Under the pieces are notes generated by a model that worked only from the letters and a program-made list of their open reading frames with translations, did no database searches and had not been told where the DNA came from. From an uncultured Eggerthellaceae bacterium (lineage in GTDB: Bacteria > Actinomycetota > Coriobacteriia > Coriobacteriales > Eggerthellaceae), in the NCBI GenBank assembly GCA_944321455.1, contig CALULI010000004.1:124001-188000 (forward strand): 64,000 bases of DNA, in the 5' to 3' direction. Each line of letters begins with the position of its first letter. The stretch's first letter is position 1. Made by a program: the position numbers and the translations under genes. Of the stretch, positions 9,894-29,975 are shown piece after piece.

Positions 9894-10781
9894 TTATTTC
9901 ACAACAACAGAGCTGCCCGCTAAAACAGCATTAAGGGTGCCTGTATAACTTGGTGTTGCGTTACCAACAGCACGCAAAAACTGAACGCCTGCACGCTGAA
10001 GCTGAAGGGCGGCATCATACATGGTGCTGGCTACGTAGTAAGGATTGTCGTCAGTTGCTTCAAACTGACGCTGCTCGACGCTTTTCACAACAAGCTCAAC
10101 AATCAACGGCTTGTCAGTGGCCTCTTTCATTTCTTCAACAAGTTCTAGAACACGACCAAGCGGCAATGCCGTGGTAATACCAAGCGCGTCTGCACCATAT
10201 TCATCACCAAGTGCAATGGCATCTTTGAGGGTATGAGGTGAAGAAAGCTTACCGTTTTCATCAAGACAATACGAAAGCATGACAGGTCCATCATAGATGC
10301 TACGCGCACCCATCAAAGCACACTGCGCGTCATAGGCATTGGTGATATGAGTAAAATACATCGCATCAAACGGATAGGCCCTGAGCGCTTTAACTGCACG
10401 CTGGTACTGGTCTTTCGATTGCTTGAGCGAAGTCTTGCTTTCAGGATCAAGCGGAAGAGCCGTTGAGGCAATTTCTGCCAAGATATGCTGAGGCTTGAAC
10501 GCTGCAGCAGTCTCATAAGCATTGCGCGCCATATCATCCATACAATCAGTGAAATTGGAATAGGCAATATGGGCAGGCGTAATAAGGTTTGAAGGAGCCA
10601 CGAAGCATGGTGTTTCAATCATAGCTTCGGTGCGGAAGGCTTCTTCGAAAAGTTCTGGCTCACACAAAAGCGCATAAATTTGATCTGCATCATCAGTAAA
10701 GCCTTGCTCATCAAGCACGCGGTCAAACGATGTTGACAACGCAAGCATGTCAAGATTAAAACGCAATTGAATATCTGCCAT
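9894..10781 (-). CDS. Homocysteine S-methyltransferase-like protein lacking the zinc cysteines
   Basis: This 295-residue protein resembles the homocysteine S-methyltransferase (TIM-barrel) family in its overall layout: an AETA-like segment, a SYCLDENGKL strand, a DALGITTALP strand and a C-terminal RAVGNATPSY segment. In active family members these last two positions read roughly GxNC and GGCCGTTP, supplying three zinc-binding cysteines. Here they are GITT and AVGNATP, so the metal site appears lost. It is probably not a standard methyltransferase and may be a non-zinc relative with another ligand. It forms a two-gene unit with the downstream 82-residue gene. The fold assignment is by eye and needs a profile search. 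Confidence 0.6.
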   Translation of the reverse strand: MADIQLRFNLDMLALSTSFDRVLDEQGFTDDADQIYALLCEPELFEEAFRTEAMIETPCFVAPSNLITPAHIAYSNFTDCMDDMARNAYETAAAFKPQHILAEIASTALPLDPESKTSLKQSKDQYQRAVKALRAYPFDAMYFTHITNAYDAQCALMGARSIYDGPVMLSYCLDENGKLSSPHTLKDAIALGDEYGADALGITTALPLGRVLELVEEMKEATDKPLIVELVVKSVEQRQFEATDDNPYYVASTMYDAALQLQRAGVQFLRAVGNATPSYTGTLNAVLAGSSVVVK

Positions 10782-10869
10782 AGCACACCTCGCACCTAAT
10801 ATTTTTCGCTAGTAATAATAGCGTATTGCATCGAGGAAATTGAATTCTGTTGAACCATAATCATGCCTC

Positions 10870-10888
10870 GATCGTGTGCGCCACACGA
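10870..10888. other. Perfect 8-bp inverted repeat in the divergent intergenic region
   Basis: ATCGTGTG (10870-10877) and CACACGAT (10881-10888) flank a 3-nt spacer. The site lies about 90 bp upstream of the methyltransferase-like gene and about 160 bp upstream of the opposing promoter. There is no T-run on either side, so an operator is more likely than a terminator. Confidence 0.45.
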
Positions 10889-11044
10889 TAAAGCGAACAC
10901 CACGCTGCATGGTCGTCATGAATGTGCTTTGTATTTGTCAATATGCCATTCGTTAAAAATGTGTACAAATCTTGAAGAAAGAATCGCGTGAACCCGTTCA
11001 ACCGTACAAATCAAACGCTTAATTCCAATTTTGTATGAAATGTA

Positions 11045-11073
11045 ATGACAAAGCAAAGCGTCCTTTTTATAAT
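11045..11073 (+). promoter_or_regulatory. Strong sigma-70-type promoter for the 2-hydroxyacid dehydrogenase
   Basis: ATGACA (11045-11050) and a perfect TATAAT (11068-11073) are separated by 17 bp. This predicts a transcript starting near 11080 and therefore a 5' leader of about 190 nt before the ATG at 11271. Confidence 0.65.
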
Positions 11074-11079
11074 TCAATC

Positions 11080-11270
11080 CAGCAAATATGGTCCCCTCCC
11101 AAATTTGCTCTGCTAATGCAGAGGCACCTCATCCCCAAACATAAAGGTGCCGACACTCCCTCCTTGCGGGCCTGACGAGATCCCCTCTTGCAGGCCCCTC
11201 CTCTTTTAATAAGGCTTTTAGTAATAAAGCTTTATACCCGCATATTCTGCTACCAAGGAGTACGGTCCTT
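11080..11270 (+). ncRNA. Structured mRNA leader of unknown class
   Basis: Three consecutive hairpins lie between the promoter and the start codon. The first is CTCTGC/GCAGAG (11108-11123). The second is GGCACCT/AGGTGCC (11123-11151). The third is a longer one, GGGCCTG/CAGGCCC (11168-11197), with inner CGAGA/TCTTG pairing, followed by a short pyrimidine/T stretch to 11207. Four pyrimidine CCCTCC-like motifs (near 11093, 11157, 11182 and 11196) could pair with a Shine-Dalgarno sequence. I cannot assign it to a known riboswitch or leader family. The real ribosome binding site AAGGAG is at 11255-11260. Confidence 0.45.
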
Positions 11271-12230
11271 ATGAACATTACGGTACTTGATGGCTACACC
11301 ACTAACCCTGGCGATCTTTCCTGGAACAACCTGTCGGATCTTGGTCAAACAACCATCTACGATCGCAGCCCTCGAGAAACTATCGCTTCGCGCCTGAGTG
11401 AAACCGAAATTGCCGTATCGAATAAGGTGGTGTGGGATGCAGAGCTTTTTGATCAAGCTCCGCATCTTAAAATGATTGCGCTTCTCTCAACGGGGTTTAA
11501 CGTGGTAGACCTACAAGAAGCTAAACGCCGTGGTGTTTTAGTTACAAACGTGCCTGCTTACTCAACTCCTGATGTGGCGCAAATGACCTTTGCGCTCCTT
11601 CTTGAAATAACCAATCAGGTAGCCACTCATGCACAAAGCGTTAAAGAAGGCGCCTGGTGTTCCTGTCCTGATTTCACCTACAGCTTGACTCCCTTGATTG
11701 AACTTTCAGGTAAAACCTTAGGAATTATTGGCATGGGAAGCATTGGGCAAGCAGTTGCCAAGATTGCTCAAGCCTTTGATATGAAGGTACTCTTTGCCAA
11801 CCGCTCTCAAAAACCAGCGTGTGAAAACGCCAGCACGACTCAAGTTGACCTGGAGACCCTCCTTCGCCAGGCTGACGTGATTTCGCTTCACTGCCCTGCC
11901 ACTCCTGAAACGGAAAACATCATCAATGAATCTACCCTTGCGCTGATGAAGCCAGGAGCTATAGTACTCAACACAGCACGAGGAACCCTTGTTGATGAAG
12001 CCGCTATGGCTGCCGCGCTTCAGAGTGGCCACATTGCAGCTTTCGGTGCTGATGTGGTAAGTACCGAACCCATGACCGAAAATAATCCTTTGAAAGAGGC
12101 ACCTCATACGTTTATTACGCCTCACATTGCTTGGGCAACAAAAGAAGCGCGACAGCGCCTGTTAGACACTGTCGCGTGCAACATCAAATCGTATTTAGAA
12201 GGGCATCCTCAAAACATCGTTTCTGAATAA
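11271..12230 (+). CDS. D-2-hydroxyacid dehydrogenase (glycerate/lactate dehydrogenase type)
   Basis: NAD(P)-dependent cytosolic dehydrogenase of 319 residues that interconverts a D-2-hydroxyacid and its 2-oxoacid. The Rossmann motif GIIGMGSIG is near residues 150-158. The substrate-binding arginine is in NTARGTLVDE near 236, a glutamate lies near 265 (STEP), and the catalytic histidine is in PHIAW near 284. It is closest by eye to hydroxypyruvate/glyoxylate reductases, but the substrate cannot be read from the sequence. It stands alone behind a strong promoter and a long structured leader, so its expression is probably regulated post-initiation. AAGGAG is well placed for the ATG. Confidence 0.88.
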   Translation: MNITVLDGYTTNPGDLSWNNLSDLGQTTIYDRSPRETIASRLSETEIAVSNKVVWDAELFDQAPHLKMIALLSTGFNVVDLQEAKRRGVLVTNVPAYSTPDVAQMTFALLLEITNQVATHAQSVKEGAWCSCPDFTYSLTPLIELSGKTLGIIGMGSIGQAVAKIAQAFDMKVLFANRSQKPACENASTTQVDLETLLRQADVISLHCPATPETENIINESTLALMKPGAIVLNTARGTLVDEAAMAAALQSGHIAAFGADVVSTEPMTENNPLKEAPHTFITPHIAWATKEARQRLLDTVACNIKSYLEGHPQNIVSE

Positions 12231-13305: not shown

Positions 13306-13381
13306 GGGGATGTAGCTCAGTTGGGAGAGCGCAGCGTTCGCAATGCTGAGGTCGTGGGTTCGATCCCCATCATCTCCACCA
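13306..13381 (+). tRNA. tRNA-Ala (anticodon CGC)
   Basis: A 76-nt cloverleaf including an encoded CCA. The acceptor arms GGGGATG and CATCTCC pair with one G-U. The D-arm is GCTCAGTTGGGAGAGC, the anticodon loop TTCGCAA gives CGC (decoding GCG), the variable loop is AGGTC, and the T-arm contains GGGTTCGATCCCC. An intrinsic terminator follows 12 nt downstream. Confidence 0.95.
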
Positions 13382-13738: not shown

Positions 13739-15250
13739 TTGGACGCTATTAATGAAGTACTTGCTGTTATCGATAGCTTCATTTGGGGTCCACCCCTCAT
13801 TGCCCTCATTCTCATTGGCGGTATTTTTCTTACCATCCGTCTAGGAGGCATTCAATTCCGTTGGTTACCACGCGCTCTTCGCTACACCTTCAGCAACGAA
13901 GAAAATGGCAAAGGTGAAGTAACCAGCTTTGGCGCTTTATGTACAGCTATGTCTGCTACGGTTGGTACGGGTAATATCGTTGGCATTGCTACCGCAGTTG
14001 TTGCTGGCGGTCCTGGTGCTTTGTTCTGGATGTGGCTTGCTGCATTGTTTGGCATGGCAACCAAGTTTTCCGAAGGCCTTCTGGCGGTAAAGTTTAGGAC
14101 CATCGACTCTAAGGGTCATGTTTTAGGTGGTCCGTTCTACTACATTGAAAATGGCATGGGCCAAAAATGGCGCTGGCTTGCTAAGCTTTTCGCCTTCTTT
14201 GGCATGTGCGTAGGCCTTTTAGGTATTGGTACGTTTACCCAGGTAAACTCAATTTCAAGCGCGGTAACGGGCTTCTTTGATCCTGAAAAAGCCTACACCG
14301 TAAGCATCTTAGGCATGGATTATTCCATCGCTACTATTATTGGTGGCTTGATTACGGCCATATGCGCAGCATTGGTTATCATCGGTGGCGTTAAGCGTAT
14401 TGCTAACGTTTCACAGCGAATTGTTCCTGCCATGGTTGTTGTATTCTTGGCATTTTCATTCCTGTTGATTTTCTACAACATTGCTGCCCTTCCTCAGGCT
14501 TTGATCACCATTGTTGAGCACGCTTTTGGTCTGCAGGCATTCGGTGCTGGCATGTTTGGCGCAATCTTAATTGCAATGCAGATGGGTCTTGCTCGTGGTA
14601 TTTTTGCAAACGAAGCAGGTCTTGGTTCTGCCCCTATTGCTGCCGCAGCTGCACAGACCAATGAGCCTACCCGCCAGGGTCTTGTTTCCATGACGCAGAC
14701 GTTTATTGACTCTATGATCATCTGCTCCATGACTGGTCTTGCTCTGGTTATGACGGGCACCTACGACATTCCTGGTCTTGAGGGCGCTGATGTTACCAAC
14801 GCTGCTTTCCAGGCTGGTCTGCCCTTTATGCCACCTGAGCTTGTTTCCTTTATTTTGATGATCTGCTTGGCTCTCTTTGGTTTCACGACTATTTTGGGTT
14901 GGAGCTATTATGGCGAACGCTGCTTGGAATATTTAAGCAACCGCAGCATTCGCGGCGTTAAAATTTATCGCTGGCTCTACATTGCTTGCATCTTCATTGG
15001 TCCTTACATGACCGTTTCTATGGTATGGACCATCGCTGACATCTTTAACGCTTGCATGGCTGTTCCTAACATGATTGCTCTGTTTGCCCTCTCAGGTGTA
15101 TGCGCAAAAGAAGCCAAGAGCTATTTCACCCGTTTGAAAGCCGCCGATAAAGACGAATCGAAGTTAGCTGAACGTCCTGACGATTCCGAAGACTGGAAAA
15201 CACCAAAGGCTCAAGTCCGTCAAAAGGTGTTGGAACAAACGCAAGATTAG
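13739..15250 (+). CDS. Sodium:alanine/glycine symporter (AGCS family)
   Basis: Inner-membrane Na+-coupled importer of alanine or glycine, 503 residues with about 11 hydrophobic segments. The family signature FANEAGLGSAPIAAAAAQT is near residues 290-310, and an N-terminal ATVGTGNIVG repeat binds substrate and sodium in family members. A short basic/acidic C-terminal tail follows the last membrane segment. Translation starts at TTG (13739) behind a strong AAGGAAGGAG. The glycine riboswitch in the leader supports glycine as a physiological substrate or signal. A strong terminator follows, so the gene is monocistronic. Confidence 0.94.
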   Translation: MDAINEVLAVIDSFIWGPPLIALILIGGIFLTIRLGGIQFRWLPRALRYTFSNEENGKGEVTSFGALCTAMSATVGTGNIVGIATAVVAGGPGALFWMWLAALFGMATKFSEGLLAVKFRTIDSKGHVLGGPFYYIENGMGQKWRWLAKLFAFFGMCVGLLGIGTFTQVNSISSAVTGFFDPEKAYTVSILGMDYSIATIIGGLITAICAALVIIGGVKRIANVSQRIVPAMVVVFLAFSFLLIFYNIAALPQALITIVEHAFGLQAFGAGMFGAILIAMQMGLARGIFANEAGLGSAPIAAAAAQTNEPTRQGLVSMTQTFIDSMIICSMTGLALVMTGTYDIPGLEGADVTNAAFQAGLPFMPPELVSFILMICLALFGFTTILGWSYYGERCLEYLSNRSIRGVKIYRWLYIACIFIGPYMTVSMVWTIADIFNACMAVPNMIALFALSGVCAKEAKSYFTRLKAADKDESKLAERPDDSEDWKTPKAQVRQKVLEQTQD

Positions 15251-29123: not shown

Positions 29124-29975
29124 TTACGCTAATAGTCCCTGACTTTGCATATATGCTTTCAGATCATCTTCCCAATGGGGCATGGTAAGTATGCCCGTCA
29201 ATTCAAGCATAAGATTCTCAAGGTCAAGGTAATAGGAATCTTCAGAGTTGTAGTCGCCCACCACGCAGTCAGTTGACAAACCAGCCAACTCAAGAATGCG
29301 TTTTGCGAACTCAAAACGGCTTACGGTGCCTTCACATGAAGCATGGAAAAGACCAAATTCGCCGCTTTCGATAACAGAAATAACAAACGAGGCAAAGGTT
29401 GCAACAGACGTTGGCGAAGAAATCTGCGTTGCAGACACTGGCATTTTTTCACCCGTTTTAGCTGCGTTGATAACCTGACCGAAGAAATTGTCATCGCGAT
29501 TTGCATACACCCAAGAAGAGCGAATGATGATGTGATGCTCATTTAATTCACGAACGAAATTTTCACCAGCAAGTTTAGATTTACCAAACACATCACGAGG
29601 ATGAGCCGTATCAAATTCGTTGACCGAAGTCTTCGTGTTGCCAGCAAAAACATCATCGGTGGAAAAATGAACCAAGAGTGCGCCAGTCTGTGCACTTAAA
29701 ATAGCCAAGTTTCGTGCACCAAGCGTGTTAACACGGTAGGCCTCAAGCGGATTAGCAAGAGCCTGTTCACGTGAAGAAAGACTTGCACAATTGACAATGA
29801 TGTTTGGTCTATTTCTGTTTACATAGGTTTTAACCGCATCAAGATCGGTCACGTCAACTTCGGAGTCAGTCGTAATAACAATGTAGCGGCTGCGGTCAAA
29901 CAGCGGCTCTAGTTCACGACCAATTCGACCAGAAGCGCCCGTAATCCAGACAACGTCCTGAGGTCCAAATTGCAT
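29124..29975 (-). CDS. RmlD-like sugar-nucleotide reductase with altered catalytic site
   Basis: Extended SDR protein of 283 residues similar to dTDP-4-dehydrorhamnose reductase. The nucleotide-binding GASGRIGRE is at residues 13-21. The family YxxxK motif is F130-G-K-S-K134 here, so the catalytic tyrosine is phenylalanine, and the usual STDYVF reads STDDVF at 105-110. No other rhamnose genes (rmlABC) are close. It may be a reductase with a different proton donor, a regulatory paralogue (as MAT2B is), or an inactive homologue. It is upstream of and close to the DAACS gene. Confidence 0.78.
   Translation of the reverse strand: MQFGPQDVVWITGASGRIGRELEPLFDRSRYIVITTDSEVDVTDLDAVKTYVNRNRPNIIVNCASLSSREQALANPLEAYRVNTLGARNLAILSAQTGALLVHFSTDDVFAGNTKTSVNEFDTAHPRDVFGKSKLAGENFVRELNEHHIIIRSSWVYANRDDNFFGQVINAAKTGEKMPVSATQISSPTSVATFASFVISVIESGEFGLFHASCEGTVSRFEFAKRILELAGLSTDCVVGDYNSEDSYYLDLENLMLELTGILTMPHWEDDLKAYMQSQGLLA

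Follow-up and report, generated by a model that had tools for sequence, protein, structure and literature searches.

The LhrC small RNAs of Listeria monocytogenes (LhrC1-5) are encoded in five copies and display the motif UCCC in a loop, a single-stranded region and the loop of the terminator; according to the LhrC sections of PMC4132741, the predicted site in lapB covers the Shine-Dalgarno sequence, and expression depends on a two-component system. The same sections connect UCCC motifs with mRNA target binding by RNAIII, RsaE, SprD and FsrA in Gram-positives (PMC4132741). In mycobacteria, the 6C RNA, or B11, carries two C-rich loops, and B11 represses via a 5' UTR containing a G tract; in the reporter experiments that form part of PMC10470900, a construct with a G-tract 5' UTR was still repressed by B11 in which either C-rich loop had been mutated. 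Finally, the streptococcal csRNAs are a related set of small RNAs under the control of CiaR, complementary to the start region of the comC mRNA, and their promoters contain the repeat TTTAAG-N5-TTTAAG with an 11-bp period (PMC8186281 and PMC4507080, in the portions that deal with these RNAs).

The stretch of DNA analysed here, referred to as the window, comprises 64,000 nucleotides from an uncultured Eggerthellaceae bacterium. On its forward strand, positions 11080-11209 match covariance models for a predicted RNA of ~130 nt and represent a copy of an RNA family found in the Coriobacteriales. Judged from comparison among genomes, it is probably a small RNA that is free-standing and acts in trans by pairing with ribosome-binding sites, a reading to which we assign a probability of roughly three in four. 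The nearest studied design is LhrC, by analogy and to the extent that LhrC is set out in the source above: UCCC likewise occupies a loop, a single-stranded segment and the terminator loop, and many relatives of the window genome have multiple copies. It differs from LhrC in having four hairpins, in belonging to another phylum, in being present as one copy in the window genome, and in showing no detected sequence relation (no Rfam match). As with 6C/B11 (RF01066), an actinobacterial small RNA with C-rich loops is predicted; the 6C/B11 RNAs are described with two such loops, whereas four hairpins and an unpaired anti-Shine-Dalgarno linker are found here, and RF01066 is unmatched. The resemblance to the csRNAs, as these are described, lies in a set of small RNAs with phased direct-repeat promoters, seen here in relatives outside the window's genus, whereas the repeat itself is different (CA every 11 bp, four times) and there is no Rfam match. 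UCCC motifs are also shared with RNAIII, RsaE, SprD and FsrA as described, although there is again no Rfam match and the mechanism is one that we infer.

Transcription would begin from a sigma-70-type promoter at 11045-11073 (+), in which the -35 hexamer ATGACA (11045-11050) and the -10 hexamer TATAAT (11068-11073) are separated by a 17-bp spacer and together match 11 of 12 consensus positions. Such sites are no commoner than chance would provide (two in 3 kb, against 3.9 expected), and the promoter is supported by its conservation, not by its rarity: in relatives, the -10 hexamer is kept a few bases 5' of a conserved CAGC. The start of the RNA in the window was placed from the -10 hexamer and its end from the T run.

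Within these limits, four hairpins are predicted. Hairpin 1 (11082-11108) has a TCCCCTC loop closed by GG/CC and shows compensatory changes; its loop contains the conserved C-rich motif TCCCCTCCC (11092-11100). Hairpin 2 (11109-11122), identified from the fold and from covariation, has a CCCC or UCCC loop in many relatives. Hairpin 3 (11123-11151) is seen in the fold, with changes on both sides at five of seven pairs among three sequences, and its loop contains ATCCCCAAA within the window's own genus. It is followed by a single-stranded linker (11152-11167), the proposed seed, whose core CTCCCTCCTTG (11156-11166) includes the anti-Shine-Dalgarno sequence CCTCCTT. The GC-rich, terminator-like hairpin 4 (11168-11197), assigned from fold and covariation, has the loop UCCCC and leads into the tail CTCCTCTTTT (11198-11207), recognised by its sequence as a terminator T run. 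Three T positions of the tail are nearly invariant across 47 sequences, and in the same-genus genome G002 nine T follow the stem of hairpin 4, with one A between. A consensus terminator scan of the window did not flag this 3' end. An additional AT-rich hairpin (11209-11235, +) lies 3' of the RNA and, except for one base, beyond the region to which the models extend.

The predicted RNA at 11080-11207 folds at -46 kcal/mol, compared with a mean of -27.4 for shuffled sequences (z -5.6), and none of 200 shuffles was as stable; the minus strand gave a weaker fold relative to its shuffles (z -2.9) and was dropped as a candidate. In a hand-made structural alignment of the three genus RNAs, standard pairs make up 97.9% of pair cells, and two-sided changes occur at 13 of the 32 pairs; shuffles gave 4.7, and sliding the partner gave no more than two. 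The C-rich sequences GGTCCCCTCCCAA, ATCCCCAAA and CTCCCTCCTTG and the CCCCT of the last loop are kept in all three, while the surrounding stems vary. An alignment of 47 sequences made with MAFFT alone (A6) gave two-sided changes in 20 of 31 named pairs (10.3 in shuffles), the structure counted being named by hand and written from the consensus of A6 itself, and its covariation score was 0.231, against 0.137 +/- 0.006 for shuffled and at most 0.086 for slid alignments. Plain RNAalifold recovered 11 pairs from A6, confined to hairpins 3 and 4, and we think that it missed hairpins 1 and 2 because MAFFT shifts them. In a further alignment, A7, all 30 of 30 pairs have two-sided changes, a figure that leans towards the model to which A7 was fitted. 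When 79 non-redundant copies were folded singly, 71 formed exactly four top-level stems. What comparison shows, then, is a predicted RNA family in which four hairpins covary, the loops are C-rich, the unpaired linker (C)CCTCCTT hardly varies and a terminator-like hairpin forms the end.

An earlier note on this DNA had proposed a structured element behind a strong promoter, with three hairpins, of which the GC-rich one is followed by a T stretch. The promoter is borne out by its 11 consensus positions and by the -10 hexamer kept in relatives, and the structured element by stems that covary around fixed C-rich loops and a fixed linker. The hairpins are likewise found, as is the GC-rich one with its T stretch, but their number has to be corrected to four, with the AT-rich hairpin as a fifth beyond them. 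A small ORF within the RNA (ATG at 11088, 18 codons, located by eye) was considered as a candidate and rejected: although the corresponding position reads ATG, GTG or TTG within the genus, the frame runs for 18 codons here and for 118 in the same-genus genome G001, and outside the genus there is no start codon at that position, again by eye.

C-rich motifs recur along the RNA, with TCCCCTCCC at 11092, TCCCC at 11132, CTCCCTCCTT at 11156, TCCCCTCTT at 11181 and CCCCTCCTCTTTT at 11195. Exact CCCTCC occurs 11 times on both strands of the 64-kb window, where 13.0 occurrences are expected by chance, so that there is no overall excess; three of the 11 fall inside the 128-nt RNA stretch. The core of the linker is nearly invariant across 47 sequences, and few parts of the RNA vary as little. 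It is also predicted to be accessible, with a mean unpaired probability of 0.957 in 78 copies, compared with 0.418 elsewhere in the RNA, and reaches 0.9 or more in 71 of the 78. As RNA, the core CCUCCUU is the anti-Shine-Dalgarno sequence of 16S rRNA and forms part of the 16S 3' end GGATCACCTCCTTTCT. This end was read in the relative G102, since that of the window's own genome was not readable: the 16S end pattern is absent from that genome, and no SSU rRNA was matched in three of the five genomes searched (G000, the near-complete genome of the window itself, G001 and G093), in a search whose control matched only 9 of 14. Either the assemblies of those three genomes lack the SSU rRNA, or it is masked there, or the search missed it.

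The earlier note had also suggested that CCCTCC-like motifs could pair with a ribosome-binding site, and this agrees with what is found: several such motifs are present, and in the linker CTCCTTG (11160-11166) is fully complementary to CAAGGAG (11254-11260), the ribosome-binding site of the downstream dehydrogenase gene. In an illustrative survey of the 42 large genes of the window, 37 have at least 4 nt of complementarity to the core, counting the best of several start codons and with no shuffled control. The longest such stretch, of 9 nt, precedes an RmlD-like gene (29124-29975), and 7 nt are found before the dehydrogenase and five other genes of the window. Pairing with particular targets is something that we infer, because an anti-Shine-Dalgarno core is complementary to almost any Shine-Dalgarno sequence. 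For the same core, the identity of CCUCCUU with the 16S tail, together with its unpaired state and low variability, would also suit a general mimic of the 16S 3' end, lowering the translation of mRNAs with strong Shine-Dalgarno sequences as a class and not of chosen targets; however, conservation extends to the C-rich loops beyond the core, as would suit an RNA with chosen targets, and we consider a general mimic unlikely.

In Rfam 15, the RNA is unmatched at gathering level, both in the window and in 15 homologue loci. None of the known riboswitch or leader families reaches a gathering score over it, in keeping with the earlier note, which had found no match to a known riboswitch. At a lax threshold, both strands of 10780-11330 gave four matches (RT-9 and three snoRNA families), all far below gathering scores. 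The 6C RNA (RF01066, with a gathering threshold of 47 bits) is unmatched in the window and the 15 homologue loci, and none of 40 relatives exceeded its cut-off, a result that is weak alone since 14 control genomes gave none either. LhrC, whose family we take to be included in the Rfam library, is not matched at gathering level in the window or the 15 homologue loci, nor in the lax scan of the locus itself. The gathering-level matches that the window does contain are a tRNA at 13306-13378 and, near it, a Glycine riboswitch (RF00504; 13561-13655, +; 67.3 bits). The riboswitch lies directly upstream of a large ORF (13739-15250) that reads, by eye, like a sodium:alanine/glycine symporter.

Literature searches on small RNAs of Eggerthella and Coriobacteriales, on anti-Shine-Dalgarno small RNAs of Actinobacteria and on candidate structured RNAs returned no title describing this RNA among the matches listed, the supplements of structured-RNA screens aside. 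The main text of PMC8040213 mentions none of Eggerthella, Coriobacteri-, Actinobacteria or Gordonibacter; its supplement may list the RNA. The RNA is a new family, of a type of RNA already known. The screen just mentioned is, we assume, that of Fremin and Bhatt 2021.

A BLAST search of 59 genomes with the DNA detected one clear homologue, in G001 (E 1e-27), and two short matches in G002, and an exact-motif pattern was confined to the window's own genus (3 of 138 family genomes). Because BLAST finds so few homologues, covariance models were needed. At E<=1, the first (R1), built from three genus sequences, matched 64 of the 138 genomes in the family and found as many as four copies in a single genome. 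The second (R2), built from 47 sequences, matched 128 of the order's 395 genomes at E<=0.1, and R3 matched 130 of the 395 at E<=0.001, of which a hand count places 105 in the family (of 138) and 25 elsewhere. The window copy scores 124 bits with R1, of which it is itself a part, 66 bits with R2 and 74 bits with R3. Among the 25 genomes outside the family, 16 belong to family f5, and the weakest match, in f4, may be due to chance. R3 found no match in 33 of the 138 family genomes; G003, a 63% complete genome of the same genus, had no model match. In a sample of the phylum, R3 matched 12 of 396 genomes at E<=0.01, 11 of them from the window's own family and the remaining one weak.

The linker, as GCATCCCTCCTTGT or GCATCCCCTCCTTGT, and the same order of hairpins are found in f5 (L152, L156, L157, L160), f2 (L153) and f6 (L163). 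In named genomes, an exact pattern for the core yielded 17 stretches, where R3 finds 32 copies; the names are Eggerthella sinensis, an Eggerthella MAG, Paraeggerthella, Gordonibacter, Enteroscipio, Rubneribacter and other Eggerthellaceae, and we take all 17 to belong to Eggerthellaceae. The same pattern gave no match in viral contigs, and a phage origin was dropped. Genomes often have two to four copies, and that of the window has one only. In G002, a second, diverged copy lies at a different place (L078:6100-6224). As comparison shows, roughly three of every four family genomes sampled have the predicted RNA, which also occurs in some of the order's other families and is often present in multiple copies.

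These multiple copies in many genomes, and the recurrence of a single short motif in the linker and the hairpin loops, could also be explained by a protein decoy, in which the repeated CCUCC/UCCCC loops bind an RNA-binding protein instead of mRNAs, much as RsmZ-type RNAs bind CsrA through GGA motifs, the motifs here being C-rich. The nearly invariant core, however, is precisely anti-Shine-Dalgarno, which base pairing explains without an extra protein. We therefore regard a decoy as distinctly unlikely.

Under the preferred reading, a small RNA that pairs with ribosome-binding sites, the sequences upstream of many copies would point to regulated expression. Many copies outside the window's genus are preceded by an element consisting of T-CACAA, CA, CATA and TTCAA, followed by TATA-T. 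The four CA dinucleotides have an 11-bp period and are found in 44, 46, 45 and 43 of 49 non-redundant sequences, and the autocorrelation of information content peaks at 11 and 22 (0.26 each). Direct repeats with such a period are characteristic of response regulators of the OmpR/PhoB type. With one mismatch allowed, the element pattern is found at 73 sites, which belong to 63 of the 137 family genomes (L055 and L061 are examples), and the reversed control pattern gave none in the matches listed. Matched by hand, 66 of these sites lie just upstream of an R1 or R2 match, and four more lie just upstream of a model match by other checks; the other three comprise two that precede sRNA-like sequence without a model match, one of which is cut by a contig end, and one that lies at a contig end. 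As nearly all sites precede the RNA, the element is nearly private to it at that stringency. In the examples seen, each of the neighbouring copies has an upstream element of its own. A changed core, CCCTCCTAA, was observed directly after the promoter element in a second copy in G121 and in a copy-like sequence in G122 that no model matched (L154:625-750, L151).

The element was found in none of four genomes of the window's genus and, at one mismatch, is absent from 74 of the 137 family genomes; regulation may accordingly differ widely. Better -35 hexamers occur instead in the window and in G001 (TTGGCA-17-TATTAT, by eye). A DNA-binding regulator of the 11-bp repeats, perhaps an OmpR/PhoB-type response regulator, would induce the RNA in the relatives that carry the element, and in the window's own genus the better -35 hexamer would replace this regulator-dependent induction.

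The gene downstream of the RNA in the window encodes a D-2-hydroxyacid dehydrogenase (11271-12230, +; Pfam PF02826/PF00389), and the earlier note had proposed that the RNA is its leader and senses a related metabolite. This proposal is mostly not supported, since the gene is not a constant partner of the RNA. Neighbouring genes were surveyed with four marker genes in 60 copies with at least 700 nt downstream, a part of all matches from which the window copy was left out. Seven of the 60 copies are followed by the dehydrogenase on the same strand at a distance of no more than 600 nt (once 25 nt past the model end), a recurrence that suggests an old neighbour; in the other 53 it was not found within that distance on the same strand. 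Five copies (L075, L085, L095, L098, L100) have a convergent galU 83-156 nt downstream, an arrangement in which a cis-acting leader is not possible. Single same-strand cases include a methyltransferase at 120 nt (G002), nrdD at 281 nt (L090) and galU at 75 nt (L158), and many of the 60 copies have no marker gene of the four nearby. Some copies are at most 700 nt apart, and in examples each has an upstream element and an end of its own. All three genus genomes that carry a copy place the RNA between a methyltransferase-like gene and galU, in opposite orientation in G002, and the dehydrogenase is absent from the locus in both same-genus relatives with the RNA (G001 and G002).

A cis-acting leader or attenuator, in which hairpin 4 would terminate transcription or the linker would sequester the ribosome-binding site of the dehydrogenase, in either case responding to a metabolite, is thus very improbable: the gene does begin ~60 nt past the RNA on the same strand, its ribosome-binding site is fully complementary to the linker and the arrangement recurs in seven copies, but it is missing in the other 53 and in both genus relatives, convergent galU and copies near each other argue against it, and the linker pairs here with a generic Shine-Dalgarno sequence. 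Transcription may possibly read through into the dehydrogenase in the window genome, and the same-strand genes close after some copies make control by read-through possible.

For the free-standing small RNA, the proposed mechanism is that the linker and the C-rich loops would pair with the Shine-Dalgarno sequences of target mRNAs and so block ribosome binding, and that multiple copies, where present, would act redundantly. Repression at ribosome-binding sites is proposed because the designs of LhrC and B11/6C are similar, and it stands by analogy with them. A further-reaching possibility, which we hold to be doubtful, is that many Coriobacteriales possess a dedicated switch of regulator and small RNA, in which one signal would raise one to four copies with anti-Shine-Dalgarno linker and C-rich loops and re-set translation across the cell, and that this RNA would be the main post-transcriptional regulator in gut bacteria, Eggerthella and Gordonibacter among them.

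The Coriobacteriales include drug- and diet-metabolising gut bacteria, and the RNA would be a widespread small RNA in a group for which no regulatory small RNA was found described among the matches listed. The comparison offers hypotheses in the form of a seed, a promoter element that points to a regulator, and copies to delete; the CA-repeat element should lead to that dedicated regulator. It also suggests that the multicopy, C-rich, anti-Shine-Dalgarno design with repeat-driven promoters, described in Firmicutes, is present in these bacteria as well, without detected sequence relation.
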